Under the pieces are notes generated by a model, which worked only from the letters and a program-made list of their open reading frames with translations, did no database searches and was not told the origin of the DNA. A DNA stretch of 64,000 nt from Anthopleura xanthogrammica (Eukaryota; Cnidaria; Anthozoa; Actiniaria; Actiniidae): assembly GCA_964019055.1 (NCBI GenBank), contig OZ025216.1:186001-250000 (forward strand), written 5' to 3'. A program made the translations under genes and the position numbers. Positions within the stretch are counted from its first letter, which is position 1; each line of letters starts with the position of its first letter. Shown one piece after another: positions 10,101-64,000 of the stretch.

Positions 10101-13100
10101 CCGGTCATTCTTGTACAGATAGGGTAGGTCATTAAAAAAATGCAATAAAAAATGAATAAATATACCATCTTTAAGCATGATATGATGTCCAGGAAACCAC
10201 CAGCAGCACCAGCATGCACAGCAGTTCGTCCTTTCTCTGTGTCCACTTGGACGTTGGGTTTGCAGCCCTCGACTGAGGGAAGAGAAGGAGAAAGAAAGGA
10301 GCTTTAGAACAAGGAACTTTTTTTTCATCACAACAAAAATTCTACTATAAAGATAACTTCGACATCTGTAGAACATTCTTCTTACCAAGCAAAGCTAGTA
10401 CTTTACTAAGGTTCTTAGTCTTGACAGCTTGATAGAGATTCCGCGCTGTAACGCGTAACTTTTTGTACGGTCTGAAACAAAAAGATCTAAAAATTAGGAA
10501 AAAAACAGTGGAAATGTATATTAACCTGTGATTATGAAATATTTCCGTATGTCCAGGTCTTAATTGCATTGATGTTGCAGAAACTGGGGTGGCCCCAATA
10601 TAAAACTGTGGGGAATGCCAAAAACTTTTATCGTTCATTTTCAAATTGAACATTGTTTTTTACAATGAAGTTACTGTTTGTTGTTACCTTTCTCTTTGGG
10701 TTTCTTGCAACATTTTTAGTAGACTATCTGGACTCGAAACAACATCATACTCTTCTTCAAAATAAGAACAGATATGAAATATCAGACAAGACACAAGTTT
10801 TGTGAGTACATAAGAACAGATATGAAATATCAGACAAGACACAAGTTGTACGAGTACATAAGAACAGATATGAAATATCAGACAAGACACAAGTTGTGCG
10901 AGTACATAAGAACAGATATGAAATATCAGACAAGACACAAGTTGTGCGAGTACATAAGAACAGATATGAAATATCAGACAAGACACAAGTTGTGCGAGTA
11001 CATAAGAACAGATATGAAATATCAGACAAGACACAAGTTGTGCGAGTACATAAGAACAGATATGAAATATCAGACAAGACACAAGTTGTGCGAGTACATA
11101 AGAACAGATATGAAATATCAGACAAGACACAAGTTGTGCGAGTACATAAGAACAGATATGAAATATCAGACAAGACACAAGTTGTGCGAGTACATAAGAA
11201 CAGATATGAAATATCAGACAAGACACAAGTTGTGCGAGTACATAAGAACAGATATGAAATATCAGACAAGACACAAGTTGTGCGAGTACATAAGAACAGA
11301 TATGAAATATCAGACAAGACACAAGTTGTGCGAGTACATAAGAACAGATATGAAATATCAGACAAGACATAAGAACAGATATGAAATATCAGACAAGACA
11401 CAAGTTGTGTGAGTACATAAGAGAAAAGAGTGATATGAAAATGTAAAGTATTCCATCAGTTTGGTTTGCTTACCAACAGGTTTGGTGGATGATGAAGATG
11501 ATGGTGAGGATTCAGAGGCAGCAGATGTAGCACTGGAAGAAGCTGCTCTCTCAATTGCCTTCAATCTGTCATTAAATTTTGTTGCAACAGGTGCTTGAGA
11601 TGATGTACGAAGGTCTAAAGTCCTAATTACTGGCGAGGATATTGGTGGATCGCTACAAAACAGAAAAAGGGTTAAATAAGGAAGAAAAATGCTGTAAGGC
11701 TGACAGGAAAAATAAGTGGAAGAAACACAGTAGAGATTGATAACATTAATACAAGAACAGACCCCTAACTGCACATAATGTCAAAGCAGCTCAATTTGGA
11801 GGACAAAACAAAGAATTACAATCTCCTGAGAATTGGAAAACTATTGTTTTGTCCTCGACATTGAGCTTCATTCTGACGTGCTGCAAGGGGTGTATTGCAT
11901 CATGCATCATGTATGCCAGATAACTCACAGCTTTTTATGTAACTTGACATCTGCACTCAATCTTGCTCCTAAAAGACACATTAAAAAGTAACCATAAACA
12001 CTAATAACTTACTGACATGATAAACAACTATTCTGTTGCTATAACTTACTTGTGGATTCCAATTTTTAACTTAATTCATAGTATATTGTGGAATTTATTA
12101 TTAGATTGGAAAGTAAGTATAGAAATGATTTATTATTTGTCACAAGCTGAAAGGAACTCAGAAAAAAAACAGATTCTGTGATAGGAATTGAACCCATGAC
12201 CTTCCAGATAATGATTGGATGCTCTAACAACTGAGCTACAGGAAAGACTCATCATTAAGTATAATACTTACTGTGTCTGGGAGATAATGGAGTAGCCTGA
12301 GGTTCCTTTTGCAAGGCACTGGGTGGTGTCTGTGAGTCTGATTGTGTTTGGGATTCTTGATTTGGTGTGGTTGTTGTTATATTTGTTGTTGTTGCTACAT
12401 CCTGATAAGAAAAAATCAAAAAGTCATTTATTGCAGTTTACAGGACAATTATTGTGGTTTTCAGTACTTCAAAAAGACTCCATGGATGTAGTGTCCTGTT
12501 GGAATCTTTGATTTTGTTGCCACCAAGCAAAATTGTGATCAAATGAAAAACCAATTTTCATCCAATGAGTTCAAAGCTCAGCTAAGATCATAAAATATAC
12601 AGAAAATTGCAGTAAGCACAACCAGAAGTTGAAGAAGAAAAATTCATAAAATTGTATATTACTCACAATATCTGTGGAATGTGATGCTGTAGGAATTTTG
12701 TCATCATTTGATGAAATCACTGTAAAATAAATATCAAATTCTGTAAATTTTAATATACTTTAGGATTTTAAAACAAAAAAAAGACTTTTGTATTTGAGAG
12801 TATAGTCTAGTAAACTTGAGTACACTTTATTAAAATAAATGTGGAAGTTATCTATCAATAAGCAAAAAGTTTTAGTTGATGAATTTCAAAAAGTGTTGTG
12901 TAATTATGTCTCAATAAACATAACTTTTAAACAAACAGCATTTTTCTTCCTTACCTTTTGAAGATGTAGTTGTAGTTGGTCTTACTTCATCTATAATTGT
13001 TACATCATCATCATCATCAGAATCAATCACCATGGGATCACTCTTATTCAACCCCTGTTCTTGTTTCCTGATATGAGTTTTACAGCTGCACTTTTGTTTA

Positions 13101-39752: not shown

Positions 39753-42700
39753 ATGGTTGAGAGACAGTCAAGTGGGAAGTTTTCCAAGCAGTTTTCATCT
39801 CGTGGGTCATCCTCACCTGCCAGTGAGTTTGATGAAGATAAACTACACTTGGAGGGGAAATATCTAGAAAATGGGCTAGAAATAAGGCCTCCTAGTGGCA
39901 CTTATCACCTGGTATAGTTGTGGACCGTATATATTACTATATTTAACACATACTTTAATTATGAACTGTACGTAATTTGATGCACATCATTTGTAAACAT
40001 TGAGATTTGCCGATAGCTCAAAGTCTGTAAAACTTCAAAATATTAATATTTTCTTAGAGCAAATGAATACTTAACGGCAAAAATGAAAATTTATCATTAT
40101 ATTATCTGATATACATTCATTTTTTGTATCCTTTTAGCAACCTGGTTCACACTTGAGCATTGATACAAGGCTTTCAGAGCTCAGTCTAGGTAGGTCTTCA
40201 AACCCTGTTTAGAACCAAGTGAATGCTAAAGCTATGGACACATGGTGCAACATTGCGTGCAATGTTGCAGGCAATTGATGTTCCTAGTCATGTCACATGA
40301 TGCAATTTGTTGCACGCAATGTTGCTGAAATAGAAAAAGATCCTATTTCAGCAACATTGCCTGCAGTATTGCACGCAATAAGCCACTTCACGGTTTCGTC
40401 CTCCATCTTGAAATTGGGGCAAACGCAGCAAAATATATAGAAATCTAGATCACTTTGACTTCCCGTAACTCCGCTCAATTCTGATGGATTTTCAAGATTT
40501 AAACTTTTTTGAAAAGATATTTTCTTTGTTACTTATACCTCTAAATATGATGGAAAATGGAAAGCTTTAAATTAAGAAAATAAGATGTTTGTTTTCATAA
40601 TAAAACGATGGGCACGTGAATATGAAAAATTTGTAAAAATAAGATGAGTCGCAAAACTAGTTAAAACACCTACATTGGTTTTATTTTCCGTCCGACAACT
40701 GGTATACATGGCTGCTGATAATTGAAGTTTAAATTTTGAAAATCCATTAAAAATGAGCGGAGTTACAGAAAGTCAAAGTGATCCAGATTTCTATATATTT
40801 TGCCGCGTTTGCCCCAATTTCAAGATGGCGGACGAAACCGTGAAGTGGCTTATTTTGTACCGTGTGTACTTAAATGTGGCAGACAAGTTAGTATTTTTGG
40901 GGGACTTCAAAATTGTTAAAAACTATCCTTAGCAATTGGTTATAATTGCTATATATTTCTAATTAAGCTCCAATCAGTTCCAATGAATGCAGAAAACATG
41001 TCAATATGTTTTTGTTTTGTTTTAATATTTTTTATAGGTACAGTTGATGACTACAATGAGGTCAGAAATGGGTCGTTTCATGAATCTCGTTCTGTCAGTG
41101 CATCAAGCAATAACAAACACAGAGTGCAAGTAAACAAGCCTAACTGTTACATAACCTCTCCTTTCAAACAAGGATATCAAGTACCAAGGAAGGGTGCCCC
41201 TTCTAAGGTACATTTACTATCAATCTCATAATATTAAAAGAATCAATATTATTACTAGTACTATGACAAAGGACTACATGTAATGTCTGAAACGTCATTA
41301 TACACTGTAGTTACAAACTATTTTACATGTTGTTTATTCAATACACTAGAATATCTACAGTCCCAACTAGTAACCACTAGTCATTATGTGAACTGATCTC
41401 AAGTGGATATTTCTTGATTACCTAGTGATGATGAGTGTAGGAATTTATTTGATTTCAAAGGTAGTTGATCCAAGTTATGAACTCAAAAATGTAACCAAAG
41501 AGAGTATTGCAAGAGTTAGACAGCAGTTCAGAAAACCAAAGCCACCCTCACAGCCATCTCACTATGCTCAAAGACTAAGGAAAGCTAGGTACATTGATGC
41601 TGTCTTCTCCCATTACTTTCCTTTCCTAAACTTGCTTTTTTCTCTTTTTTCTCTTTACTCTTATTTCCCAATCTTTCCTTTTATTTTTCTTTCTTTCTTC
41701 CCTCTTTCTATCCTTTCCTCCCTAAGTTCCTTCCTTTTCCATTTTTATTTTTTATTAATTTACCTATTTTTTGTCACTAGCAGACCTGAAAGTACTCTTA
41801 TTTTTTAATGACCTTGATGTTTGAGCATTACTGACAATACTGTACTTCTTGACATGTTTCTGTAGGCTCAAGACCACAGGGAGACCATTCAGTGGATCTG
41901 GTCCATCCATCCAACAGTGCAAGGGAATTCAGTCAGGTACACATAAATACTCTCTATACCTGTACATGTAGGTTGTTCAACATACCGTCAGTAAGCTAGA
42001 CTACCATGTATCTTTATTTTCCCTTCTTAAATATCCCTCCTTCTTCACAGGTGTGCGAGTGATACACAGCTCAGGTCAGCCTGGTTTGTACTCCAATGAA
42101 GTCTACTCCCGTATGGGATCCCCCTCTCTAAGACCAGGCAGTCCTACAGAACTCTTAAGACCAGAAAGCTCTCTTCACTGTCCGTCCAGGGCTTCTTCTA
42201 AGATAGACTCTAATGAGGATAGCATGTCTGAGGACAGTTTTGAAGCTGATGGTGCTTTTGATAGCTGGATTAATGCATATTCAAAATTTGAGAGAAAGGA
42301 TTCGTCTAGTCGTGGTGCAGACTATGACAAGGAATATGTCAGAGATCAAGACCCTATTAGCCCTACATGTAGGATGAATATTAGTAATGAATTATGTGGA
42401 CATGTGCGAAAAATCAAACTAGAAATCCCTCAAAATGATGTCGTATCTGATGCAGGAGTGTTGCCAACTGAAGGGGAGCGCTTTCCAAAAGGAAACACTG
42501 GACTCATTTCTAATGAAGAATTGAACAAACAAAATCAAAAGGAATTGAGTGATTTAAATGCGAATAAAGATGATTATAGAAAACACAGGACTCAAAACTA
42601 TGATGGCTGCAAGCCGTTTACTGATGATGGTGATGCAGACCATGATGATGATGATGATGGTGATGACAATCAAAGAAAACCTCAAACATTGCTATCTAGT

Positions 42701-45502: not shown

Positions 45503-45914
45503 CTTCCACTCAGTTCCTGCGTGCGTTGTACGGGGTGTGTAGAGTGTATTGTGTGAGAAGGCGTGCGTTTAGAGTATGAACACCAATAATAAGGTTTTGT
45601 ACGTGTTCTCAAAGGAATGTTGGTGTTACGTGTAGAGAAGTAGCGTATTCGTGAATTGAGCAGGTAGAACGCGTTACATGTCACGCGTGTCTTTAGAGTG
45701 TTGGTGTATGACTTATGGCCATGGTGTGACAGGGTCATAAGAGTCAATGTCTTTGCAATGAAGATAAGAATATCAGTCGTGAAAAATACATAAAACTATT
45801 TATTCAGTCTTTCAGAAAGTATTTTTAGACTTATAATTTATTGAATAAAGCATTTTATAATCGCATCTTTTAATTTATTCTTGTGGGACAAAGACTCAAA
45901 TTTGATCTTTTTTT
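45503..45914. other. Short convergent gap between the GGCT-like gene and the first secreted-protein gene
   Basis: A plus-strand AATAAA lies near 45844 and a minus-strand AATAAA near 45797. The left edge of the tandem duplication (45663) falls here, so the 3' end of this convergent pair was duplicated along with the secreted-protein gene. Confidence 0.5.
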
Positions 45915-47071
45915 CTATCGAATTTGAACGTCAACTGTTGCAAGATACGTCTTGCCAATGGTTTCGGCGAGTTTTCTGAACTGAGCTTTAATGCCTGCCA
46001 TATTACCAGCGATGTCTTGATAACGTAGATCCTGGACTACACCCGCGGCACTGACGACTCCTGGGAAGGGTGCGGTGCCATTAAGGTACATCTCCTGAAA
46101 GATAACATTTATTGTTCATGATCCATGACCGACTCATTATATACAGCTTGACCTAAACCTACTTGCTTACCGATATTTTCATGGCCATGATGAGCGTGTT
46201 AATGCCACCTTTATTTAGTGTTACACAGTTCTGTATCTTTTGACTGAGCGAGGAGTTGGATGAATCAGGCCTTACTTCTTCGAATAACAGAGAATAGATC
46301 TGTAAGTCTCGACGATCAAAGGCGAGTCTTTGTGATTCCTATTGAAGAAGACCAAAACCGAGCTGGTTTTAATAGTGAACAAGGTGTGGTGATCAAGGCG
46401 CGTGTTTGAAAGGGCAAGTGAACGCGGTAAGTAAATTACTCCAAAACTAAGACAGCGCTTTTTGAATATAAGTAGCAAGTCTAAAGTTGCCCATTTGCTT
46501 CACTTTGATTGGTTCAAAGCGGATGCGTATGCCATTTTAAAGGAAATTGTGCGCAGGCACATTGGAAACAAAATTGAAATAAAGCATGCATAGTTAAGCA
46601 ATACAACGTTCATTACGTACCGTGATGCCGGAGCTCATCAGTTGAGATGTTTTATTGAACACTATTTTTTCCTGAAATTAAAGCAAACATACATCAAAAT
46701 TACGATGAGTATTATTTAGTATCAAGATGTGCGCAAGATCTGAGGATCTATGAAGATCAACTTGTGCATTCAGTAAAGTGCAAAATGATGTAACATCCTT
46801 TCAGTATTGACTTACAAACTGCTGCATAGTCCTGTAAACATGTCCCGTCATACTGACGCACCAGCCATCAAGGGACTGGTGATGGGTATTGGTTCCTGAA
46901 GGGTTGACGGGCAGTACTATCATGGTACACCTTACTTGACCTATCATCACAACAACCATGATGGCTGTCCACAGCTGAAGGAAAGCTTTGCCTGACATAG
47001 TTCAGCTTCAATTGGTACTAGATATAGAAAGCCACCCAAAAAAAAGTAGGATGTCACTCAGTAGGTTTAGA
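45663..47071. repeat. Tandem duplication, copy A (1409 bp)
   Basis: This segment recurs at 47075-48483 with an offset of exactly 1412 bp. Every stretch compared is identical, including introns and 3' flank. GAGC microhomology is present at the left junction and three bases (GCT) separate the copies. Confidence 0.95.
45915..46998 (-). CDS. Small secreted helical protein, copy A (candidate class I helical cytokine)
   Basis: Coding exons are 46816-46998, 46621-46671, 46171-46338 and 45915-46094, with all three introns in phase 0, giving 193 residues. An in-frame TGA just before the ATG fixes the start. Residues 1-24 form a signal peptide (hydrophobic TAIMVVVMIG core), so the product is secreted. 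The mature chain is helix-rich with two cysteines (C47, C116) that could bridge, and three N-glycosylation sequons (N67, N106, N139). Four coding exons in phase 0-0-0 with a 51-nt second exon are the known layout of IL4/IL13/IL5/CSF2-type genes. The cytokine assignment is my inference; no sequence-level family match is claimed. This copy has no promoter or 5' exon of its own: directly upstream lies the 3' end of copy B. Confidence 0.75.
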
Positions 47072-47074
47072 GCT

Positions 47075-48483
47075 GGTAGAACGCGTTACATGTCACGCGT
47101 GTCTTTAGAGTGTTGGTGTATGACTTATGGCCATGGTGTGACAGGGTCATAAGAGTCAATGTCTTTGCAATGAAGATAAGAATATCAGTCGTGAAAAATA
47201 CATAAAACTATTTATTCAGTCTTTCAGAAAGTATTTTTAGACTTATAATTTATTGAATAAAGCATTTTATAATCGCATCTTTTAATTTATTCTTGTGGGA
47301 CAAAGACTCAAATTTGATCTTTTTTTCTATCGAATTTGAACGTCAACTGTTGCAAGATACGTCTTGCCAATGGTTTCGGCGAGTTTTCTGAACTGAGCTT
47401 TAATGCCTGCCATATTACCAGCGATGTCTTGATAACGTAGATCCTGGACTACACCCGCGGCACTGACGACTCCTGGGAAGGGTGCGGTGCCATTAAGGTA
47501 CATCTCCTGAAAGATAACATTTATTGTTCATGATCCATGACCGACTCATTATATACAGCTTGACCTAAACCTACTTGCTTACCGATATTTTCATGGCCAT
47601 GATGAGCGTGTTAATGCCACCTTTATTTAGTGTTACACAGTTCTGTATCTTTTGACTGAGCGAGGAGTTGGATGAATCAGGCCTTACTTCTTCGAATAAC
47701 AGAGAATAGATCTGTAAGTCTCGACGATCAAAGGCGAGTCTTTGTGATTCCTATTGAAGAAGACCAAAACCGAGCTGGTTTTAATAGTGAACAAGGTGTG
47801 GTGATCAAGGCGCGTGTTTGAAAGGGCAAGTGAACGCGGTAAGTAAATTACTCCAAAACTAAGACAGCGCTTTTTGAATATAAGTAGCAAGTCTAAAGTT
47901 GCCCATTTGCTTCACTTTGATTGGTTCAAAGCGGATGCGTATGCCATTTTAAAGGAAATTGTGCGCAGGCACATTGGAAACAAAATTGAAATAAAGCATG
48001 CATAGTTAAGCAATACAACGTTCATTACGTACCGTGATGCCGGAGCTCATCAGTTGAGATGTTTTATTGAACACTATTTTTTCCTGAAATTAAAGCAAAC
48101 ATACATCAAAATTACGATGAGTATTATTTAGTATCAAGATGTGCGCAAGATCTGAGGATCTATGAAGATCAACTTGTGCATTCAGTAAAGTGCAAAATGA
48201 TGTAACATCCTTTCAGTATTGACTTACAAACTGCTGCATAGTCCTGTAAACATGTCCCGTCATACTGACGCACCAGCCATCAAGGGACTGGTGATGGGTA
48301 TTGGTTCCTGAAGGGTTGACGGGCAGTACTATCATGGTACACCTTACTTGACCTATCATCACAACAACCATGATGGCTGTCCACAGCTGAAGGAAAGCTT
48401 TGCCTGACATAGTTCAGCTTCAATTGGTACTAGATATAGAAAGCCACCCAAAAAAAAGTAGGATGTCACTCAGTAGGTTTAGA
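47075..48483. repeat. Tandem duplication, copy B (1409 bp)
   Basis: This is the second identical copy of 45663-47071. Unlike copy A, its right edge (48483) continues into unique sequence that carries the 5' exon and TATA box. Confidence 0.95.
47327..48410 (-). CDS. Small secreted helical protein, copy B (candidate class I helical cytokine)
   Basis: Coding exons are 48228-48410, 48033-48083, 47583-47750 and 47327-47506, identical to copy A and encoding the same 193 residues. This copy has a complete transcription unit: a TATA box at 49036-49046 on the minus strand and a non-coding exon ending at a GTAAGT donor (48936), which splices to an acceptor just before the coding exon. Copy B is therefore the likely parental gene. 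It points away from the related gene at 51632-53960, with about 2.5 kb between the two TATA boxes. Confidence 0.78.
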
Positions 48484-48935
48484 TTAATGAATAGGACCTA
48501 GTGAGGGCCGAGTGTTTTCAAAGTTTCAATATGGCAAAGTATTAAGAAATGAGGGAGTATCCTTAATTTCATACAATATATAGTTTATATATTACTGGAG
48601 GTGAGTGCGGTATGAGACAAGAAAACGTTAATCAGGAGTTAAGATAAGAGATGCCGTTTGAGAAATTCAAAGTTTTGCTCTTAATTGAGAGAACCACCCT
48701 GACTAGCCACACAACATTTAACTAATTTTGCCCTGAACATAACAGAAATCAAATACTCGCGATCTTAACTACAACAGTTTGGTTCATTACATTTAACAAT
48801 TTCGTGAAGTTGAAATTTGCGTAAAAACCAGTACCCATATAACAAAAAGAAATTGTTTTTGCCTAAACATTTCTCAGTTTTACTTTCATCAATGATACAC
48901 ACTACTTTGTTTATAATAAAAACAAACTAACTTAC

Positions 48936-49046
48936 CGCGGCTTTCGATAAAAAAAGTTGCTTAAACTTTTCTGATTCGGTTCAAAGGGTAGGTTGTCGGA
49001 TTAGTGTCGGTTCAGTTGAAGGGTATCGAATAGCTCTATTTATACC
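48936..49046 (-). promoter_or_regulatory. TATA promoter and 5' UTR exon of copy B
   Basis: On the minus strand, GGTATAAATAG (49036-49046) is a consensus TATA box. About 30 bp downstream begins a short exon that ends CCGCG|GTAAGT at 48936. The matching acceptor (TATATCTAG) lies about 20 bp before the ATG of each copy. A TATA box suits an inducible gene. Confidence 0.6.
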
Positions 49047-51516
49047 ACAGTTCATCAACATGATCACAAAGTAAACTGAATTGTTTAAGTCGGGCTTGAT
49101 TACGTCAAGAACTATTTGAACACAATTATTATCACAGAGGAAGAGATGTGAAAAGTGTTTGAACGTACAGTAGCCTAGTGTGTGTTGGAAATCGTTGACT
49201 ATAGTATCTTCCAGCTTCCGGATTCGGAATTTTGCTAAATTTTATTTTAAGAATTTTTGAGAAGTTTTTGAAACTTTTTTGGACGAATTTTCATTGAGCG
49301 GAAGCCATAAAGATAGTCCTTTAATGTTCGGGAATTAGAACAAATTCTTAGGAGACTCAAACGTCTAGAGTTATCTCTCCTGATAAACAGGCCCTTGGTA
49401 ATGCCAATGTTCATTTTATATTATAACTCAGTGAATCCATTTCATCAGTTTATTAACACTGGTAATGAACAATCTCGCTTGAAATACTTTTTTATTAAAG
49501 GTATGTTTGTTTCAGTGTGAATCATTTTAAGTTACCATCACTGTCGGAGAAGTTTTGTTTTTTTCGCGACGAATCTGAGTCAGCATTTGTCAACGATAGC
49601 CCCACATCAGTACTGCAAATGGTCCATATTGGAAAAATTTATTCGCAAATTGATTTAGCAAAAAACCCTGATCTGATCGATTGCGGTATTTGAAACATGT
49701 ATTTCCTATGAACTCGGTAGGGAATTTTACCTCGTGTCTTTCTTTGTGCAAGGTATCCTACAGCTTCCTGACTAATGATCGGAATAAACGGCGAAAAAAA
49801 TAAAAATAACGGAACAAAATAAAAAGACGGTTTGCGGCGGTGTGTAATACGTACGTACATATTCCTCGGAGTTTCTAATGCAATATTAAATTCATTTAAA
49901 GAAGTTAATAGATTGGCGTAAGCATAGAAATATTTTCTTCCTGTAATAATTAATAGTATTCTACTTACAAGTAAGCTTACAGTTCGTACTTTTGTTAAGC
50001 AATCAAATCCAAATTCGATGAATTTGAATCGATGACAAAACCGTCTTCTTGTTGACATTCTTGGAAGTAAATTACAAAGTAAACCCTATCCATGACACGC
50101 TGATCACTGCTGAAGGACAACACTGTAGAATTGCACGAAGTTTTTCAAACTTTAGACACTTTGTTAAAGTTGTTTGAAAACTTTGTTGAAGTTGTTTCGC
50201 AGCAAGCTGAAGCCAATGTTTATAAATAAAGACTTTCAGAAGTTTATATTGAGTCAGTATTCAACCCCCACGTTAATTCATGAAGAGAGATATTTCGAGG
50301 AACTTATGTGGGTGGACTTGATTCAACGATTCTTAGAATTAACGGCTGAATGAGTTTGCTTCTTGACTGGTTCGGCAGCCCGTAAACCTGCCATTAAACA
50401 CGCAATATAACCTAGAAGAAATTTTGAATTATTCGTTAAATAAATTATTCAACTTCGAAAATTTTCTATTTTTCTTTATAATTTTTACCATGAAATAAGG
50501 TCAGAATATATATATGCGCATGACAGCTGTAACTTAACCGCTTCAACTTAGGAATGGTTCTTAATTAAAACAGCTGAAACGCTTGAAATCAAGCAAAACT
50601 CAAGTTTAATCTTCTTATATAAAATTGACTCTTGTAAAAACAATTGGACTACGTTATATGATTCAGTTTTGAACTCATTGGATGCTCCACTCAAATACAC
50701 TTCTACTTAACTCCTACACCTCTATTCATTCTCCACATGACTTTATTATGACTGGCGCCAGCTAATCTGGACGTGGGACTCACTGTAACGGTGTTGCGAA
50801 ATACCCGCCTACTACAGTGTATGTTTTATTGTAATATTTTTTCTGGGAAATATGATCTAGATATTGAGCCACATTTGATAAAGCGAAAGCTAGAAAAAAG
50901 AGCAGGAAACGCGACGGAAATTCGTGTCAGTATACTGTTTTATATGATAAAATGATAAAAACAGAAAATCAAAACAAGACTGTCATTTGGCCTTGGTATT
51001 TTATCGAAAAATTGTCGTCTCTTTGATTTTCATGTAGAATGATAAAACTTGGCATTTAGTTGGTGGAAGTTTCTAGAATATTAAGAAAAAGAAAATAAGA
51101 TTTTGTATTTTGTACATGACATTGCGATTGTTCTAAGTTTAACCTATGACACCCTCAAATACCAGAACAACAAAGTACAATAATCCTATCTACAAATACC
51201 TACATACACTTTCTACTCGATAGAAATTTTGTTTAACTCCCTCAATTTGCCTCATGATCAAGAAATCAAATGAACCGTACGAAGTATTGTTGCCTAAGAA
51301 TCGGAGTTTTGTCTCTCTCGCGGGGCTGTCGAGCAAAATTACCGGAAGTGGATCCAATGAAACCCATGACCGTTGACTGAATACTCGGAAGTAAGAAGGG
51401 AAATGATACTTTATAATTATAAGGGAATTTTTAGCTTTTGATCGCGAGAAAACCCTGCAACCTTATATTTTATTTAGCCCATGACTTCAAACATGAAGTT
51501 ATTATTAACGAAGTGT
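49047..51516. other. Divergent intergenic region between the two secreted-protein promoters
   Basis: This 2.5-kb AT-rich region probably holds shared control elements. On the minus strand it has two weak coding candidates. One starts with an ATG at 50058 and includes an exon-like stretch 49863-49945 (RKYFYAYANLLTSLNEFNIA). The other is an exon 50323-50411 with a good acceptor that ends in a hydrophobic YIACLMAGL segment and a basic tail; a possible first exon has its ATG at 51367, next to an ETS site (ACTTCCGGT). Neither could be joined into a complete gene. Confidence 0.4.
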
Positions 51517-51529
51517 GATATATATATAG
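51517..51529 (+). promoter_or_regulatory. TATA-like element of the 51632 gene
   Basis: GATATATATATAG lies about 105 bp upstream of the ATG at 51632 on the plus strand, in a position that fits a short 5' UTR. Confidence 0.45.
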
Positions 51530-51631
51530 TTACCGAGGCTGATATGATATCAGTTATCAGTGAAATTCGATCAAGGCAGAAGAAATTCGACACCACCAAA
51601 AGACTTGAAAACTATTTGAAAGAATTTGAAA

Positions 51632-53146
51632 ATGGCGACGACAAACTGTGGTAAGTTTGGTTCTAGATGTTCTTATTATTTCAACAATTTTTCCCCGTTT
51701 TTATTCCTGAAACGGTTTACAGTGATGATGATTTTGTTTAAAAAGTGTTTAGTTTTCATCTTATCGATCAATTTTTTAAGTGAATTTTGAAAAGAAAAAG
51801 AAAAGAAAAGAAAACTAATTATTACACGGGTTTTGCCAACTTTTTTTTTTCTTATAAAAAATTAATGATTATTGTGGCACTCAGTAGCAATTAATTTTAA
51901 CCTTATATAAAGATACAAATATATAAAAAAGTGCGAAATGTTAGAATATAAATTTATCTAAGTATAAAGGAGTTTATTACTCATAGTTTTTCCGTCTTTT
52001 TTTTTTTTACAGTGGTCATAGCAACCATACTTGCCCTTGTGTTGTGTGCATACACATCCAGTGGGGTACCCCTACGGGTGTTAGATAAGCCAAGGCAGCT
52101 GTACCCATATGTAGTTCAGGAAAACTGCTTCAGATTGATGCACCTTGTCAGCATTACTCACTCTGAATTTGTAAGTATTGCTTCAGTCATTCATTATGGG
52201 AATATTTAGTCCCCGTCGGGGGAGGGGAAGTGAAATTGAAAGACTTTTAAATTTATCGTCATTTGATTAAAATACTGATTTCACTTTCAATCGCTTCAAG
52301 AGGAAATTGGAGAATCCTAGCTGAGCTCAAATCTTATCGATTTTGATATATTAATTGTTCCTTTTTTAGGCAAAGGAGCGATTCAAGGATGAGACCTACG
52401 ATCATTTCATTATATTACCGGGGATCGAACCTGTGTTGGATTTTGCCGCTTTATCGGTAAGTATTTTGAACAAGACATTCGTAGAAGTGCCGTCGCTTGT
52501 GGTTATTGAAATGGCTTCCCATATAAAGAACGTACGATATATGCACACATGCCGAAACACTGAAATGGCTTCCCATAAGAACCGTATCGTACGATGCACA
52601 CATGCCAAAACACTGAAATGGCTTCCCATAAGAACCGTATCGTACGATGCACAAATGCCGCAACACTAAAATGGCTTCCCATAAGAACCGTATATTGTTA
52701 GATGCACACATGCCGAAACACTATTAAAAATGGCTTTGCATAAGAACCGTATCGTAAGATGCACACATGCCGAAACACTAAAATGGCTTCTCAATTAGAA
52801 TGGGTTTTTCATAATCGAGATAATAACGGTACTGTGTTGCATTATTAAGTCCATCACTCCTAGAAGAGAGATGCTTGAGAAGAGCGATAGGGCTCTGTGG
52901 TTGAAAGTCAAATAATCCAATATATTATTTTGTTACCACCGGAACAGATAAGGCTACTAAGGCCCAGGGGGCACCCCTTTATTCTTCCTAGCTATAGGGT
53001 CAGAACCGAGATATTTAAGAAATGTTTTGTAAATAGATGTCTTTTTCTTCTATTCTTGGTCATATATTTTAGTCATTTTACCTACTTTTATTATCATTAT
53101 TTACATGTAAGCTTAAACGTTTGTTTTAAGTAGATTAATAAAGACC

Positions 53147-53182
<36 letters not shown>

Positions 53183-53960
53183 AAGGTCTTTATTATAATT
53201 ATATAATTATATAATTATAAATATAATAATTATTATTATGTTTTAGAACGAAGAATTTCTCAAGGAGCAAGTGGTTTTGTTCTACCAATTCAAACAGATG
53301 ATTCAAGAAATCACCGCCCACGAGCGCAAGAGAACCAGCCCTGGCAGCTTTAAGGATAAGTTCCAAGAAATAAATAACAAGGTCAATGATATCTTGGCGT
53401 GGCTTCGTCATATTGTAAGTTTTAACACTAATGCTCATTACTTCACACCATTAAGCTACGGACACACAGTGCAACATTGTACGCACGACGCAATTTGTTG
53501 CACGCAATGTTGCTGAAGTAGAAAACGATTCCACTTCAGCAATATTGCTGTCAATATTGCGCGCAATGTTGCACCGGGAGTTTGCGCCTCTAGCCGTATA
53601 ACACATTATTACTGCGCATATATAATAGAGTTTTCATACCCATCCCGCAAAGTGATACAATACGGGGAAGATGGCACCCTTTAAATCCCATAGCGCACCT
53701 CGCACCACAAATCAATTCATCTTTTCTGCGTCATCGAGCATGATGCATGTATGTATATTTCATTCTAATGTATTTTGTCCAATCTTTATCAGCAAAGTAG
53801 TTTGAACTACCACGTAACGAACAGCATGCCTGTGTATCCAACTATGAAACCAAAGGCAACCCAAAAGGAGCAGGACGAGTGGACACTGATGGTTCTTAAA
53901 GAACTGACGCTAAGCCTCTTGGCTCTGGCGCAAGGATCACGAGAAAAGATGGCAGCATAG
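51632..53960 (+). CDS. Small secreted helical protein (candidate IL6/CSF3-layout helical cytokine)
   Basis: Exons 51632-51650, 52013-52170, 52370-52456, 53247-53414 and 53793-53960 encode 199 residues. Intron phases are 1-0-0-0 and the first coding exon is 19 nt. Five exons with these phases are the layout known for vertebrate IL6 and CSF3 (G-CSF). A signal peptide (VVIATILALVLCAYTSSG) indicates secretion. Predicted amphipathic helices fall near residues 40-59, 66-88, 89-144 (two segments around a GS-containing turn) and 171-195, with each main helix on its own exon. Only C45 remains after signal removal and no N-glycosylation sequon is seen. At the end of exon 2 the spacing C-x6-V-x2-T-x3-F is shared with the 193-residue proteins, and exon 4 is 56 codons as is their third exon, so the genes are probably paralogues. 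The cytokine role is inferred. Confidence 0.78.
52503..52795. repeat. ~55-bp tandem repeat, about five units
   Basis: Units contain GAAATGGCTTCCCATAAGAA and GCACACATGCCGAAACACT. They lie in the third intron of the 51632 gene. A single related unit is at about 57200-57240 near RAD50, so the family is dispersed. Confidence 0.85.
53147..53240. repeat. ATT microsatellite and AT palindrome
   Basis: A (TTA)n run is followed by AATTATATAATTATATAATT, just before the acceptor of exon 53247-53414. Confidence 0.85.
53453..53577. mobile_element. Foldback repeat family member, copy 2 (intact)
   Basis: It is similar to 40230-40379: GCTACGGACACACAGTGCAA start, a TGCTGAAGTAGAAAACGATT/CCACTTCAGCA palindrome and GCGCGCAATGTTGCACCG end. 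It lies in the last intron of the 51632 gene. Confidence 0.65.
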
Positions 53961-54791: not shown

Positions 54792-56369
54792 TCACCATTG
54801 TGGCACCCATCCACAACCAGTACATAGTTTACTATCATTACTATGACTTTTGTCACAAGCTTCTTTTTGAGCTATGAATTTACATGGCAGGTCATTATGA
54901 GTTCCATCACATAATGGGGGTGAGCCTGTGTATTTACATCCACAAAGTGAATAGATTTTCTGGGGATTTTCAGGTACTTTCCATTTTAGGGACTTGAAAC
55001 CAGTTCCTTTGTGAGTTCCTGGACAAAGGAAAAGAAAAAAGACAAAGTTGGATATGGAGATTGTGGAAGTTGCCTTTAAAGTCCTTAAATTTTATTGCTA
55101 ATCAGAAACAACCTCTAGGCTGAAGAAAGTTATGAATCAGGACACAGCTGACTTAAATATCAAATTGAACTTAGTTTGTTAGGTTTTGTGGAGGCAAGAA
55201 AACCAGAGAAAAACCCTGGAATCAAGGGAGAGACCTAGCCTCCTCTGCAGGCATCTCCTTTAGGAAGCCCACTATAGAGTTAAACCGCGCTTGCTAGAGA
55301 GTAGTTTAGAGTTGCCTGCGGAGGAGGCTAGGAGAGGCCTAACAAACCAGGCCTGTGGCAAGACCTGAATAGCTGAGGTGGGGAGGGGGAAGGGGGAAAT
55401 GTTGCATAACATCATTTTGCAAGTGTGACTGATCATATTTGTGTTGATTATATAAAAAACTGGGGAGCATGGTCCTCCGAACTCTACTCAAATGTGATGA
55501 GAGACCCTAGAGATGAGAGACAAGGGCATGTTACTGCTAATATCCCACCCATGATTCTTAGCAGCCTTGTCCCCCTTTACTCATACCTCCTCTCATATAT
55601 TCTCAATTCCATTCAGGTTATCATTGAGGGTATTTCTTACCATCACACCAGGGTTGCTTCTTACTTAAACCACAGGTACACCACTTCATAGTTTTTCCAG
55701 GTTCAAGATCTTTTACATTGTATGGACCATACTGAAAAACACATGGGATAAAAGATATCTTGAGCAAATAATTCTAAGTTTATACTGGATGAGAATTGGA
55801 CAATATTATGGCTGCCATAATAGGTCAAATACCCCCCTCCCCCACAGATTTCCACCCCCCTCCAACAACCAAGAATGCTATAAATAACCTTTTGAAAGAC
55901 TCTGAAACATTTTTAAAAACATTATCCCAGTTTTAGGAAACAAGAATATTCCTATGGCAACAATTGCCATTTTTATATGTGGTATATGTTGGGGATTTTT
56001 ACAAACACTATTAAAAGCACCTCACTCACTGAACAGGAATCCCCTTGAAAGAAAGAAGTCCCAAAAAAATTATACTACAAAAGTTAAGCAATCTTGAAAA
56101 CCCCTGATATGACCCGAAAAGTATTGATCTACCTTCAAATAGAACTCGTAATGAAAGATTTTCAGGTCAAAGGATATCAAGGCTTATAAACAGTTTATAG
56201 GTAAGACACTAACCATTGCAACAGCAGGGAAAAGCTTTGGTTTAACATCATTCTCTGACCCTAATTTTCTGTCCATTGTTTCCTTAGATTGTCCTTCGGC
56301 ATTTGATGGTAGTTGATCCTGTATTTTTTGTTTCTTGATCTTCACTTCATCTTCACAGGAAGTGGCCAT
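54792..56369 (-). CDS. CISD3: Two-CDGSH iron-sulfur domain protein (CISD3/mitoNEET-related inner protein type)
   Basis: Exons 56214-56369, 55641-55731 and 54792-55018 encode 157 residues. Two CDGSH motifs that each bind a 2Fe-2S cluster are complete: CTCGLSKKQPWCDGTH and CGCKYTGSPPLCDGTH. The tandem arrangement without a transmembrane anchor is that of CISD3, a mitochondrial-matrix protein; CISD1/2 have one motif and an anchor. Unusually, the N-terminal 52 residues are acidic and Lys/Gln-rich, with no clear mitochondrial presequence, and after the second motif there is a tail with four more cysteines including LCTGCGW. An upstream in-frame ATG at 56441 would add 24 residues but gives no better targeting signal. 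The first exon faces the RAD50 promoter region. Confidence 0.9.
55085..55260 (-). repeat. SINE-like repeat, same family as in RAD50 introns
   Basis: On the minus strand it reads GGTCTCTCCCTTGATTCCAG, GGTTTTTCTCTGGTTTTC and a CCTGATTC...AGGTTGTTTC end, matching in order the repeat at 60185-60430. It lies in a CISD3 intron. Confidence 0.6.
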
Positions 56370-57740: not shown

Positions 57741-60700
57741 ATGTCAACCATTGAGAAATTAAAGATCCGAGGTATCAGGAGCTACTCCCACATAGAACCA
57801 GCTGTAATTGAATTCTTCAAACCATTAACATTGATTGTTGGTTCCAATGGAGCAGGAAAGACTGTAAGTTAGTAGAGGATATTTACCAGCCAGTGGGTCC
57901 AGAAAGGGGTAAACTATGTCCAACATCTTGAATACACAAAGCAAGGCCATTAGGCTGAGGGCTTTGTTTTTCCCTATCTAGATCGACTTTAGGATGGTAA
58001 ATAACTCATTGTTTTCCCATTTACTTTCCACTTCTTTTGCAATTTGTTTTGTTGTTTAGCAATCCATTATTCCAGGATACCGGACCCAATCAGATAGAAA
58101 ATACTGCCTGCTCCAACAGCCAATCAGAACACACAATGTTTCGGATACTAGCCTGAGAAAACAGAAGTCCTTTCTCAGGTTATTAGGATACCGGATAAAA
58201 AAATTATTTTACAACTGCATTCCTAACAAAATAATGATAGAATAGATAGAATAACAAAGCCATAGAGAAGAGCAACAATGGGTTGATGTACTTTTGAATT
58301 TGGTTGGATTGCAATGTAATTATGTTTATTTTGTTCTTCAGTCTATTATTGAATGCCTGAAGTATGTGACGACAGGTGACATGCCTCCAGGAAGCAAGAA
58401 CTCATACTTTGTACATGATCCAAAGGTAAGCATGGGTTTTGTGTGTTAAGTTCATAATTATAGACTAGATGGTAATCAAGTGAGTAACAGTATTGCACTC
58501 ACCTCTCACCTCTGGGGGTTGAGGTTGGATTACTGGACCCAGCAACACATGTCCACATTGACTACAAGGCATAGCCTGACACTGCATATATGTTTTCACA
58601 GTCAATTTAATGATCTAGGATATGAATAACTATTGAATTCCAGGTTGCAGGGGAGCAAGAGATTAAAGGACAAGTGCAGCTGTTGTTTAAAGACATTACT
58701 GGTAATACTGTAGTAGTGACCAGAGCTCTGATATCTCAACAAAAGGTTAGTTGTAAGTTATAAATGACATTTGCACCTCTCTTTGATATCAATCATCTTT
58801 TGATCTTTTAGCAATGACCATTTTCATCCATTGGTCCAATCAATATTTTCATTGCTTTAGGGTAAAAAACTTGAAACCAGAAGTCTAGAGTGTGTCATCA
58901 AAAAAGATATACACGGAGAGGTAACATAACTATTAAATGGCTGTCTAGTAGCTTGCAATGTGCAGTTTGTTCTGTTATATAATTATACAAGGAAGTTCTG
59001 TTATCTTATTACCTCCAGGGAAAATGTTCAAAAAAAATGGGCTTTGAAATGTTATGATTTTTTTTTCAAAACCATATTGATGACCAAAATGGCCAACGCT
59101 TGGTAAATGAATCAAAAACATTGCAGCATAGATGAAGCACACTCTATGTTAGTAATATTATGAATTTTCCTTTCATTTCTAGAGACGAAGTCTGAGTTCC
59201 AAATGTGCTGAAATGAATCATGAAGTGAGTTCATGAAGATCAACTACACCTTGTGCTAATCTTACAATAAAAGAATACATAATTTATTCATAAATAAAAC
59301 AGCCCTTTCTTTGCTCTGTTTAGTAATACAGCATGCAGGAAATGATGAAAGCAACAAAGAATATAAAAATGTGTCTTGAGTTTCTTTGGTACTTCCTAAT
59401 TCCTGTATTACTAAGTATGGAAAAACCTGTTTTAATTGTTTCATTAAATATAGAATTAAGAAAAAAATGTGTTCTTTTCAATGCTGTTTTCTTATCATGC
59501 CAGTACTACTATATTTTCAAAGCAGGCTGTGCTCTGTTTACTAATACAGCACAGTTCACCAATCACAGCATATGATTGTAGTAACTGTATAACTTACAAT
59601 AAAATGACTTTCATGCTTAACAATTTCTTCAGATGATTTCTCTGCTTGGTGTCTCTAAAGCTGTGCTGGAGAATGTTATCTTCTGTCATCAGGAAGATTC
59701 TAATTGGTATGTAGTACTGTATGATTACATTCACCCAACATGTCTTCTCTGACCCTACAGCTCCTACTCTCATTAAATTGCAGATTAATTGATATTCCAA
59801 ATCATTCTGTTTTTGAAATATTAGTTACCATTGTCTATTCTTTCCAGGCCTCTCAGTGAAGGAAAAGCCTTGAAGCAAAAGTTTGATGACATTTTTGCTG
59901 CAACAAGGCAAGTTGCAAGATCCATAAAGAAACCTTGTAACTCGATGCAACACATGAAAGTTGATTATTTTATTATCTGTTGACACTAGATACATTAAAG
60001 CTCTTGAAGCAATACGCAAGCTGAGACAAGAACAGGTAATCTATAATAATTTGAAGTTGATAGTATTAGAGAGTAAGGGTGGTGTTACAATATGTAATCC
60101 ATCTGTCAACAATAAGTAATTGTATACCTTAGCATATAGTTATTGTGTATGTCACTATCTTAGTACACCAGCTAGTTGTACAATAAAGACCTTGACCACT
60201 GATTATGCACTTGTCTCCCACCTCTGGGGTCTCAGGTTTGATTCCTGGACTCAATATCACATGTGAGAGCAGAGACGTTTTTGGTCTCTCCCTTGATTAA
60301 AGGGGTTTTCTCTGGGTTCTCTGGTTTTCCTCCTTACCAGCTAAATTTCAATTTGATCTATGTTGAGAGTTTGCTGTGCCCTGACTTTGATCAGATCAAA
60401 GGTTGTTTCAGGCTATTGATAAAATTTGAATTTTTTGGATATAATTATTTAATACTTGTGATATGGTGATCCCAGGATGGGGTGAATAATTATGTCTTCT
60501 TCCTTTCAGGGTAGAATTGTAGTCCAGTGTGACACAGAATTAAAATACCTAAAGGAAAATAAAGATAAAGCACAAGAGGTAAGACGATAATGATATTTCA
60601 AGGGAATATAGAATCAATGGTGGTGTAATGGTAGTGCTCTCTCCTCTAACCTTTTTGGTCTCTGGTTTGATTCCTCTGTGGATGTGGTTGTTTCAGGGTT

Positions 60701-63700
60701 TTATATGTGAGTTGGTTATGCCCTGACTTACATCGAAACCCTTACATCAACCAAGAGGTTGTTTCAGGATTCAAAAAAACATTCTTTTGTTTGTTTATCA
60801 TGTAGATTGCTGAGCAGTTGGAAAAATCTCAAGGGAAAGTTGAAGCCACCAGGGATTCTATTGTCAAGATAGCAAGAAACTTAGAACCAGTGGAGGTACT
60901 TTGCATCTTAATAATATCATTAGGATATTATTAGTTATGAGGAGTCGTATTACAGTGCAAAAAAGGGACTCACCTATTACAATTTTTTCTTTTTCTTTTT
61001 GTAGAAAAGATTGGTAGAGATTGAACAGATTGCTGGGGAAGTTAATCAGCTGCAAAAAGAAAAAGGCAAGCATTTGCTGATTTCTTCAATTTAGAGTGTT
61101 TGTTATCTTGCAAAACATGAGATAAGCAAGAGTATGTTAAAGGGTGGTTTAGTGGTCAGTAGCATCTCAGATTCTATTCTTGGACTAAAAGTATGACTGT
61201 TCACTCTTGGTTCTTAAGCATGCAGTGCTCGGGAGTACAGTTCTTGTTGGGCACTAATGTGAACACTAATTTTGAAGTACCCACCCCAAAGTGTGATGAT
61301 GCTTAATCAACAGATGTGAGCAAAGTTTGTTGGTTTTCTTGTGTACTTCAAAGTTTGTTGGTTTTCTTGTGTACTTCAAAGTTTGTTGGTTTTCTTGTGT
61401 ACTTCAAAGTTTGTTCTCCAAGTTCTTCATTTTTCCTCATTCATGAAACCCAATATGGTAAATTTCAATTCTATCTGTGAGATAGCCATGCCCTGATAGA
61501 TCAGCCTGAAGGTTGTTTTAAATAAAACAGATTTTTATGTTAACTTTTGACTATTATAATAACAGGACTGTTGATGGCAAAGAAGGAACAGTTAGCAGAT
61601 ATGGAACAGGATCTTCTACAAAACATCACAGATGTCTTTACAGGTACTGTATGTACTCTATGTAATATCTGTGTCAGACACCATACAGGATCATTAAATA
61701 ATAGTCTTTATCAATGTAAGATAGTACTAGTACTGTATGTACTCTATGTAATATCTGTGTCAGACACCATACAGGATCATTAAATAATAGTCTTTATCAA
61801 TGTAAGATAGTACTGTATGTACTCTATGTAATATCTTTGTCAGACACCATACAGGATCATTAAATAATAGTCTTTATCAATGTAAGATAGTACTGTATGT
61901 ACTCTATGTAATATCTTTGTCAGACACCATACAGGATCATTAAATAATAGTCTTTATCAATGTAAGATAGTACTGTATGTACTCTATGTAATATCTTTGC
62001 CAGACACCATACAGGATCATTAAATGATAGTCTTTATCAATGTAAGATAGTACTGTATGTACTTTATGTAATATCTTTGTCAGACACCACACAGGATCAT
62101 AATCACTCTCTGATTCCCCAGGGGGAGGGGGAAAGGAATGCATCTAACATTCCAGTGTAGTCGATTGAGAAAGAATTAAGGTCAGCCAAACACATTTACC
62201 TCCAAATGATCTTTGTTCAAAGGTCCCACAGAAGAACTACAAGGGATTTACCAGGATTTTCAGAACAAGATCAAAGAAAAGAATGAGCTCCTAAAGAAGG
62301 TATTGTTTTGTGATTGTGATTTCTTTTGTTCAACTATTGTCTATCTTAATTAACAATTACTAACAATATGTTTTGTCATGGTGCCTTGTAGAAAGAGAAT
62401 GAAAATCATCATCTTGCTGTAAAACAGCAAGAGTTAGCCCGTCAAAAGAGCTCCACCTTGCAGGAGCAGGGGAAGCTGGAGCAACAAGCACAGGTAAGAA
62501 ACATCTGTTCATCTGGGTGCAAGTCAATCAACCATTGTCACCAAATATCATTACCACCATCATCATATGCATCAGTATCATCACCATTATCATCATCATT
62601 ACCATCATCTTCATCACCTTCATCATTGTCATCATCATCATCTTCATCATTACCATCATCTTCATCACCTTCATCATTGTCATCATCATCATCTTCATCA
62701 TTACCATCATCATCATCATCACCATCATTATATGTATCATTATCATCATCATTATATGTATCATCTTCATCATCATCACCATCATTATATGTATTATCAT
62801 TATCATCATCACCATTACTCATCATTATTATTATCTTACATTTATCCATCAGTTGTAGTATAAAAAGCTTGTTGATCCTCAAGCTTGAGTCTGCATTAAT
62901 CATTCTTTCTTCTCTGTTTCCTTCAGAGACACCAAACAAACCTAGAGGATAGAGATCGCATGGTTTTGACCCTTGCAAAGCATTATGAAATTGAAGGTAA
63001 TATATTAACTGGACTTAAACCATAGGGCTTTTATTTTTGATTGTTGACAGAGGTCATAACTTATACTTTTAGGTTATAGCAAGGCACCTTTTACAGAGGC
63101 ACAAACAGACAGATTTATTGAGGATCTTAAAAAGAATTATGCAAATATTGTAGAAGAAACTAAACAGCAAAAGGTATGCCAAAATTATTTCCTCTATTTC
63201 TGCAACCCTCCTTCCCTCCCACAATTCCCTCCCTCCCACAATTCCCTCCCTCCCACAATTCCCTCCTTCCCTCCCACAATTCCCTCCTTCCCTCCCTCCT
63301 TTAATATTTGTTTGATACATCGATCAGGAGTTGTTTAAGAACAAGATAGAAGTGGCACAGAAAAAGATTGATGACATCAAGAGAAGTCAAGCTGAGTATG
63401 GTGAAACAATCAGGTTAAAGAGAAAATTGATGGTAAGACTACACACATTTAGATACCATTTGGAACATCTAGTGATCTGAACATCTGTCACTATGAGAAA
63501 GGATCATGATGATGATCTTTTAAAGTGGGCCATCACAATTAGGTATACTGATAATCTCAGTGGAGATGTTAATGAAATACTGAACATTGCCAATAGGGAG
63601 ACAATCAAAGAGAACTGAGAGCCATTGGTCAGGAACTTAGCAATGTGAATGCATCTGCCAACAGACTGAAATCACTTGATGCTGAACTGCAGCATGCGGT

Positions 63701-64000
63701 GAGTAATAGTATCAGTAGACAAAAACGCATGCTGTGCTGTATGCAGTTATAAAACACATGGGGATGTATGTAGCACATGAGGAGTGTTACATCAAGCACA
63801 TTCTGCCTGGTTCTTTATAACTGACTGCACACAGCACAGCAAGCAAGTTTTATTTATTTATTTATTTATTTTTGCATAAGACTTTAATTGAAATGTACTG
63901 TAGCTGTTGTTTTGGAAACAAATGATGAAACAGAAAGTGTGCATCCAACCTTTGTTCCCTCATAAAGCATGTGAATGATTGTAGGTGAAAGAACTTGAAG
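57741..64000 (+). CDS. RAD50: DNA double-strand-break repair ATPase RAD50, N-terminal part (cut by window end)
   Basis: RAD50 is the SMC-like ATPase of the MRE11-RAD50-NBS1 complex in the nucleus. Exons: 57741-57863, 58342-58425, 58644-58745, 58861-58920, 59183-59224, 59633-59706, 59848-59907, 59990-60035, 60510-60578, 60806-60895, 61005-61065, 61566-61643, 62223-62299, 62392-62493, 62927-62996, 63073-63173, 63328-63432, 63597-63698, 63985 onward. About 487 residues are visible of roughly 1300 expected. Walker A (GSNGAGKT, residues 34-41) ends exactly at the first intron. The Q-loop is in [20 protein letters not shown] (Q157), and SLSSKCAE and [12 protein letters not shown] match the family. 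From about residue 190 the chain is heptad-rich coiled coil. The introns after 59907 and 61065 use GC-AG sites. The zinc hook and C-terminal ATPase half lie beyond the window. Confidence 0.96.
58465..58620 (+). repeat. SINE-like repeat in a RAD50 intron
   Basis: CACTCACCTCTCACCTCTGG, GGTTGGATTACTGGACC and AACACATGTCC parallel the repeat at 60185. The tRNA-like head is degenerate. Confidence 0.45.
60185..60430 (+). repeat. SINE-like repeat in a RAD50 intron
   Basis: It has a B-box-like GGTTTGATTCCTGG, then GGTCTCTCCCTTGATTAAAG, GGTTTTCTCTGGGTTCTC and the conserved end TGCCCTGACTTTG...AAAGGTTGTTTCAGG. Confidence 0.6.
60612..60776 (+). repeat. SINE-like repeat with tRNA-like head
   Basis: GGTGGTGTAATGGTAGTGCT resembles a tRNA A-box region and CTGGTTTGATTCC a B-box. 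The body has TTATGCCCTGACTTAC and ends in GAGGTTGTTTCAGG like the other copies. Confidence 0.6.
61135..61535 (+). repeat. SINE-like repeat with an internal 28-bp tandem array
   Basis: The head GGTTTAGTGGTCAGTAGC and the end ATGCCCTGATAGATCAGC...AAGGTTGTTT match the SINE family. At 61323-61412 it holds about three copies of CAAAGTTTGTTGGTTTTCTT plus GTGTACTT. Confidence 0.5.
61644..62100. repeat. ~81-bp tandem array, six units, starting at a RAD50 donor site
   Basis: Units begin GTACTGTATGTACTCTATGT and include CAGACACCATACAGGATCAT. They start at 61644, exactly at the donor of exon 61566-61643, and recur about every 81 bp to about 62055. The first GT of the array is the working 5' splice site. 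Confidence 0.9.
62555..62832. repeat. (CAT/ATC)n microsatellite
   Basis: Nearly uninterrupted ATC triplets with TTC and ACC variants and three ATTATATGTATC blocks, in the RAD50 intron after exon 62392-62493. Long open frames on both strands here are artefacts of the triplet repeat. Confidence 0.95.
63205..63301. repeat. Pyrimidine-rich CCCTCCCACAATT tandem repeat
   Basis: Repeats of CCCTCCCACAATTCCCTCC lie in a RAD50 intron just upstream of the acceptor of exon 63328-63432. Confidence 0.85.

Follow-up and report, generated by a model that had tools for sequence, protein, structure and literature searches.

The locus described here raises the question whether a sea anemone encodes secreted helical proteins of the class I cytokine type, and whether it does so beside RAD50, the gene that accompanies interleukin genes in vertebrates. 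It lies in a stretch of 64,000 nucleotides (nt) from Anthopleura xanthogrammica (contig OZ025216.1, here C11, positions 186,001 to 250,000), which is called the window in the following and contains, upstream of RAD50, a gene A in two copies (A1, A2) and a gene B. A preliminary description made from the sequence had proposed all three as candidate class I helical cytokines of an early-branching animal. The origin of helical cytokines is unresolved, as such cytokines evolve very fast. According to the excerpt consulted, one survey did not locate members of the IL6 superfamily in invertebrates (PMC8226699), and the genes of type-2 immunity are described, in the consulted part of another report, as having proved difficult or impossible to find in invertebrates and jawless fish (PMC4690019). 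Among the open-access papers listed, as judged from titles and the beginnings of abstracts, none describes genes for helical cytokines in sea anemones or other cnidarians. Our reading, which is tentative and somewhat below an even chance, is that A and B are RAD50-linked secreted proteins, of which B would be a signal with the fold of a long-chain four-helix bundle and A a second secreted protein. Neither is assigned to the class I cytokines, and this identity may or may not apply to A and is plausible for B, whose cytokine-like nature is quite possible if short of probable.

Both gene types were rebuilt from the window. Gene A lies on the minus strand as A1 (46816-46998, 46621-46671, 46171-46338, 45915-46094) and A2 (48228-48410, 48033-48083, 47583-47750, 47327-47506), which encode identical proteins of a predicted secreted type; its 582 coding nt (193 amino acids plus stop) are divided into exons of 183, 51, 168 and 180 nt, stop included, with intron phases 0-0-0. 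Gene B on the plus strand (51632-51650, 52013-52170, 52370-52456, 53247-53414, 53793-53960) comprises 600 coding nt (199 amino acids plus stop) in exons of 19, 158, 87, 168 and 168 nt with intron phases 1-0-0-0, and its product is of a predicted secreted type as well. Every intron of A1, A2 and B is bounded by GT-AG. The preliminary description had reported three genes, two of them identical, and the layouts 0-0-0 with a second coding exon of 51 nt and 1-0-0-0 with a first of 19 nt, all of which the rebuilding reproduced; it had called the exon structure directly seen, and the models do hold, but the layouts are deduced from DNA alone. Its lengths of 193 and 199 residues are likewise right, but they are those of the precursors with the putative signal peptide counted in, and not of the mature proteins. 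A hydrophobic N-terminus can be read in A and in B, followed in B by an SSG/VP-like cleavage context, and secretion of both proteins is presumed.

The whole of gene A is contained in a perfect tandem duplication (45663-48483), in which two units of 1409 nt (45663-47071 and 47075-48483, start-to-start distance 1412) show no differences. The copies would thus go back to a very recent duplication, to gene conversion or to a doubling in the assembly. Since just 73 nt of shared sequence precede the start codon of A1 before the 3' flank of A2 follows, A1 may lack a promoter of its own. Across the 290-Mb genome no further match to A or B was found at E <= 1. In the 700 nt upstream, C/EBP- and STAT-like sites are slightly in excess above A2, and above B the same holds for IRF-, GATA- and heat-shock-like sites, in uncorrected motif counts that are not convincing; a strict NF-kB or AP-1 site is absent there. 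Within gene B, intron 3 carries a 66-nt repeat four times (52510-52793, spacings 53, 53 and 112 nt), and a part of intron 4 (53484-53567) matches at 85% an 84-nt sequence at 40296-40379, which lies just before an inverted repeat (40377-40506 and 40725-40854; 130 nt, arms 218 nt apart and 93% complementary). The inverted repeat and the 84-nt repeat are perhaps small mobile elements.

Exon 3 of gene A is conserved outside this genome. In a protein-database search, one of 41 candidates scored, namely P0001, a protein of 122 amino acids on a metagenome contig of 2088 bases, with 84% identity over 29% of A. The matched part is exon 3 (56 codons; 47583-47750 on the minus strand in A2), the similarity stops at the exon borders, and the flanking residues, Q before and VS after, fit a CAG acceptor and a GTAAGY donor. 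Since the match ends at splice-site residues, it speaks for the exon and its borders, and for a conservation outside this genome. Among viral and prokaryote contigs, no relative of A was confirmed. Codon usage puts the annotated frame narrowly first of six in both genes (A, 0.025 versus 0.022, P 0.056; B, 0.048 versus 0.037, P 0.016), the reference for P being stop-free stretches of the region 44-57 kb, the exons of A and B themselves included. Five coding sequences outside the training set scored from -0.024 to 0.080, a spread around the values of A and B that makes this measure blunt. For B, it is the open frames and the splice sites which argue for a gene.

The structural argument comes from B. 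Its model was calculated from a contiguous read-through of exons 4 and 5, including a 126-residue in-frame intron. Exon 4 (53247-53414, plus strand) is modelled as two helices with 4 residues between them, at 90-115 and 120-144 (block values of the predicted local distance difference test, pLDDT, 38-50, and 34 at the end), the second of which runs 3 residues into the intron. Exon 5 (53793-53960, plus strand) follows with a connection of 23 residues (145-167) that contains a short strand, and with a final helix of 32 residues (168-199) that carries Trp174 (block pLDDT 31-51). The helices encoded by the exons are much longer than those encoded by the intron. The up-up-down-down arrangement of helical cytokines is stated to require long loops in the excerpt available (PMC7378365), and therefore the short B-C connection of 4 residues together with the long C-D connection of 23 residues is counted in favor of a bundle. 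It is thus plausible that the helix and loop pattern of exons 4 and 5 fits a class I bundle, as far as a partial model of low confidence can indicate this. B would then fold into a long-chain four-helix bundle and might act as a secreted signal that binds a cell-surface receptor via its helix faces, by analogy with cytokines of the IL-6, LIF and CNTF type. Trp174, which lies close to the beginning of helix D, may recall Trp157, which is named as hot spot of site III in IL-6 in the same excerpt (PMC7378365). Gene A would provide a second secreted protein in two identical copies, whose fold is uncertain and may be a short-chain bundle; a four-helix arrangement in A is suggested by eye. An immune role of A and B may be supposed. 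Chou-Fasman and helical-moment profiles of both proteins were too noisy for use.

The exon layout points in the same direction. Vertebrate cytokine genes of the short-chain class have intron phases 0-0-0, and those of the IL6 class 1-0-0-0, which are matched by A and B, respectively. No literature was found that gives the phases of the cytokine classes side by side. More specific than the phases are the 19-nt first coding exon of B and the allotment of loop and helix segments to its exons. Human IL6 presumably starts with a coding exon of 19 nt and ends with one of 168 nt, just as B does, and LIF presumably has a 19-nt first coding exon, too.

The strongest circumstantial point is the adjacency to RAD50, which the preliminary description does not mention. 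The 5' part of this gene occupies 57741..64000 on the plus strand of the window, with the start codon at 57741, and the gene continues to about C11:262260; nine joined exons match a solved RAD50 structure at E 1.2e-85, and the C-terminal exons were located at C11:261667-262259. The distance to the start of RAD50 is 3781 nt from where B ends and about 9.3 kb from where A2 starts. Between B and RAD50 sits a gene for a CDGSH-type iron-sulfur protein (exon frame 54795..55091, minus strand; zf-CDGSH 27 bits, under the cut-off of 29.5). In elephant shark, gar and mammals, RAD50 belongs to a conserved locus with genes of the IL-5 family and IL-4/13 genes, as the consulted part of one report states (PMC4690019), and a KIF3A/IL4/IL13/RAD50 block appears in the excerpt of another (PMC9465101). 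Among 16 other markers of the 5q31 region, including KIF3A and IRF1, none matched in C11:86001-350000 (264 kb) at E <= 0.01 when human proteins were used as queries; the RAD50 C-terminal control did match. A broad conservation of the vertebrate 5q31 neighborhood is therefore rejected, and because of these 16 markers the adjacency to RAD50 may be a coincidence. If 25,000 genes are assumed, the chance that one gene falls within three genes of RAD50 is about 6 in 25,000. Since the marker was picked post hoc and perhaps thirty cytokine neighbors would have been equally striking, a fairer rough value is nearer 1 in 100. Through the adjacency to RAD50, a structural argument that is weak by itself becomes a proposal that can be tested, and the flank of RAD50 is a concrete place for cytokine searches in any animal genome.

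A number of results weigh against reading B as a bundle-type signal and A as its secreted neighbor. The cytokine identity put forward in the preliminary description gained nothing from sequence databases: Pfam gave no match for B and one at chance level for A (AIG1, E 0.1), NCBIfam none for either protein, and the best PDB sequences (a designed protein at E 2 for B; E 1.7 for A) are not meaningful. In a pairwise test against nine human cytokines, the best scores of B were a global z of 3.55 with IL11, a global P of 0.030 with IL4 and a local P of 0.043 with CNTF, the last for an alignment with helix B through helix D in register, and A obtained no score with IL4, IL13, IL5 and CSF2; this likeness is rejected, since reversed A against IL11 reaches a z of 5.15 and exceeds all of them. 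True cytokine pairs scored clearly in 6/16 cases (IL4-IL13, IL6-CSF3, IL6-IL11, CSF3-IL11, CSF3-CNTF, LIF-CNTF) and gave nothing in 10/16, including LIF-IL6 and IL5-CSF2. As the scores of A and B are no better than the best obtained with reversed sequences and most true pairs go unnoticed, the pairwise test cannot decide. Aligned by hhalign to a profile of five long-chain sequences, B reached P 0.056 and lined up in register from helix C over the C-D loop to helix D, a point in favor of the bundle, next to P 0.34 for A and P 0.12 for the IL4 control. These pairwise and hhalign scores of B are at most hints. A kinship between the sequences of A and B is rejected as well (mature global z -0.70); exon 3 of A and exon 4 of B, with 56 codons each, gave P 0.029 for an ungapped score and P 0.028 and 0.12 for the hydropathy correlation on two scales, among several tests. 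Furthermore, the presumed mature B holds a single cysteine.

The models themselves count on the same side. That of B has a mean pLDDT of 40.6 and covers neither helix A (exon 2) nor the A-B loop (exon 3). Its intron-coded part is structured as well (helices of 12 and 4 residues, several strands), and secondary structure in this model is therefore no proof alone. The preliminary description had suggested structure prediction followed by a fold search of the PDB as a check, which on this partial model of B yielded the bundle-like loop pattern; Foldseek returned 156 matches at E <= 10 and 0 at E <= 0.001, with no cytokine among the matches listed (the best 50 of 156), a result that tells little because half of the modelled chain is intron-coded. 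The proteins had also been called helix-rich, which holds for the three long helices of exons 4 and 5 of B in the low-confidence model and may or may not hold for A, whose unusable model of exons 1-3 (mean pLDDT 33.9) contains, in exon 3, a lone helix of 9 residues. Relatives of B were absent among 177 protein-database candidates at E <= 10 and when exon 4 was searched alone; 3 stretches in viral contigs and 14 in prokaryote genomes, collections with few animal genes inside, fitted a pattern, and 0 were confirmed. Eight of the ten RAD50 introns read are in phase 0, and because this phase is so common in the adjoining gene, the 0-0-0 layout is weak evidence and 1-0-0-0 little stronger. The correspondence to the vertebrate layouts, as it had been claimed, thus exists but says little. 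Finally, an exon-by-exon search of the genome for JAK Phl and STAT_bind gave nothing over the cut-off, with best scores of 19.5 and 18.2 bits, respectively. This negative weighs little, since the search proceeded exon by exon and since cnidarians are known to have STAT genes.

What else could A and B be? With a probability close to even, they are young, lineage-specific secreted proteins of anemones, such as mucus proteins, venom-type proteins or symbiosis effectors, which are partly helical and lie beside RAD50 by accident. The failure to find any relative of B, a sole relative of A that is 84% identical over one exon, the lack of a family match above chance, the 0/16 5q31 markers in 264 kb and the commonness of phase 0 all agree with such an origin, which on the other hand leaves the helix and connection plan of B and its allotment of segments to exons, both fitting a class I bundle, as an accident, together with a RAD50 adjacency that is unlikely for a random gene by the rough and post hoc estimate given above. 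It is very improbable that B is nonfunctional, whether because its exons arose by chance or because the gene has decayed: five in-frame exons separated by four canonical introns and a codon usage at P 0.016 contradict this, even if no relative is found and the codon signal is modest, the best frame winning narrowly.

An ancient history of the locus also has to be considered. It is unlikely that the locus is the relic of an ancestral RAD50-linked cluster of helical cytokines common to cnidarians and jawed vertebrates. RAD50 adjoins layouts of the short-chain type (A) and the long-chain type (B) here, and genes of the IL-5 and IL-4/13 families in elephant shark, gar and mammals, as far as the excerpts go (PMC4690019; PMC9465101), but KIF3A, IRF1 and the 14 other 5q31 markers are unmatched in C11:86001-350000, the CDGSH-type gene intervenes between B and RAD50, and there is no fold for A. 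Quite improbable is the more specific proposal that a RAD50-linked cytokine locus predates the split of cnidarians and bilaterians, with the adjacency kept in both lineages and with A as a descendant of short-chain and B of long-chain class I cytokines. In that case the adjacency would perhaps have been kept since regulatory DNA for cytokines lies in or around RAD50.

Further observations concern the surroundings and the animal. On the same contig, a frame for a small cysteine-rich peptide, probably secreted, lies at C11:266655-266990, about 4.4 kb past the last RAD50 exon found, and two homeobox exons, which are separated by about 5 kb and closely resemble each other (C11:300530-306122), are likely a duplicate pair. 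At C11:284784-287782, sugar-phosphate cyclase-like frames adjoin an O-methyltransferase-like gene, as judged by eye, an arrangement which we take to be that of sunscreen (mycosporine) clusters. The window also contains a long tandem array at 10684-11412 (with a unit of about 48 nt and several of its frames open) and a tRNA at 12173-12245 that was found by Rfam (40.6 bits) and is unreported by ARAGORN.

Contig C125 (20,039 bases) is the mitochondrial genome, translated with table 4. On its minus strand, the order by eye is nad5 (5' part), nad1, nad3, nad5 (3' part), a tRNA with anticodon tca, nad2, cox2, an open frame of 646 amino acids, nad4, nad6, cob, tRNA-Met, cox1 split by an intron with an endonuclease-like frame, nad4L, atp8 and atp6. 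The tca tRNA is selenocysteine tRNA (SeC) according to ARAGORN and tRNA-Trp under table 4; the rRNA genes were not located, and cox3 is not among the listed frames and may cross the contig end. The 646-amino-acid frame between cox2 and nad4 may be compared with the ORFA-type frames reported in sea anemones. COX1 is also present on the short contigs C59 and C44. The COX1 of C59 presumably resembles dinoflagellate mitochondrial DNA, and the animal therefore probably carries algal symbionts. According to the parts of two reports consulted, the mitochondrial gene order is identical in the majority of Actiniaria (PMC9213748), which the order of C125 fits, and a nad5 intron with only nad1 and nad3 occurs in Actiniaria, Antipatharia and Zoanthidea (PMC10261974). 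The gene order thus points to a sea anemone as the most likely host and bears out the early-branching animal of the preliminary description.

Among known systems, the long-chain cytokines IL-6, CSF3, LIF and CNTF share with B the size, the predicted secreted type, the phases 1-0-0-0 and, in the low-confidence model, the long final helix with a short B-C and a long C-D connection; they differ in that B is without significant sequence or profile similarity to them, that no cystine pair is possible in mature B and that its helix A is unmodelled. The short-chain cytokines IL-4, IL-13, IL-5 and CSF2 presumably share with A the four coding exons, the phases 0-0-0 and the short second coding exon, and also the tandem copies and the closeness to RAD50, which is about 9 kb away in the case of A, whereas A is without sequence similarity to them, B and the CDGSH-type gene intervene before RAD50, and KIF3A and IRF1 are unmatched nearby. 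On the receptor side, the excerpt of one study reports from cnidarians the class I-type receptor CRLF3, for which no natural ligand is known, whereas sponges, placozoans and ctenophores gave no hits (PMC6797617); the likeness of this system lies in an orphan receptor of cnidarians for which such a ligand is wanted. If our reading of B were true, B would be a candidate ligand for CRLF3, and a class I bundle in a cnidarian would date the fold before the bilaterians. A precedent is given by Unpaired and Domeless of Drosophila, where, according to the consulted parts of two reports, an invertebrate secreted ligand is called IL-6-like despite a BLAST similarity below threshold (PMC8226699, PMC7378365).

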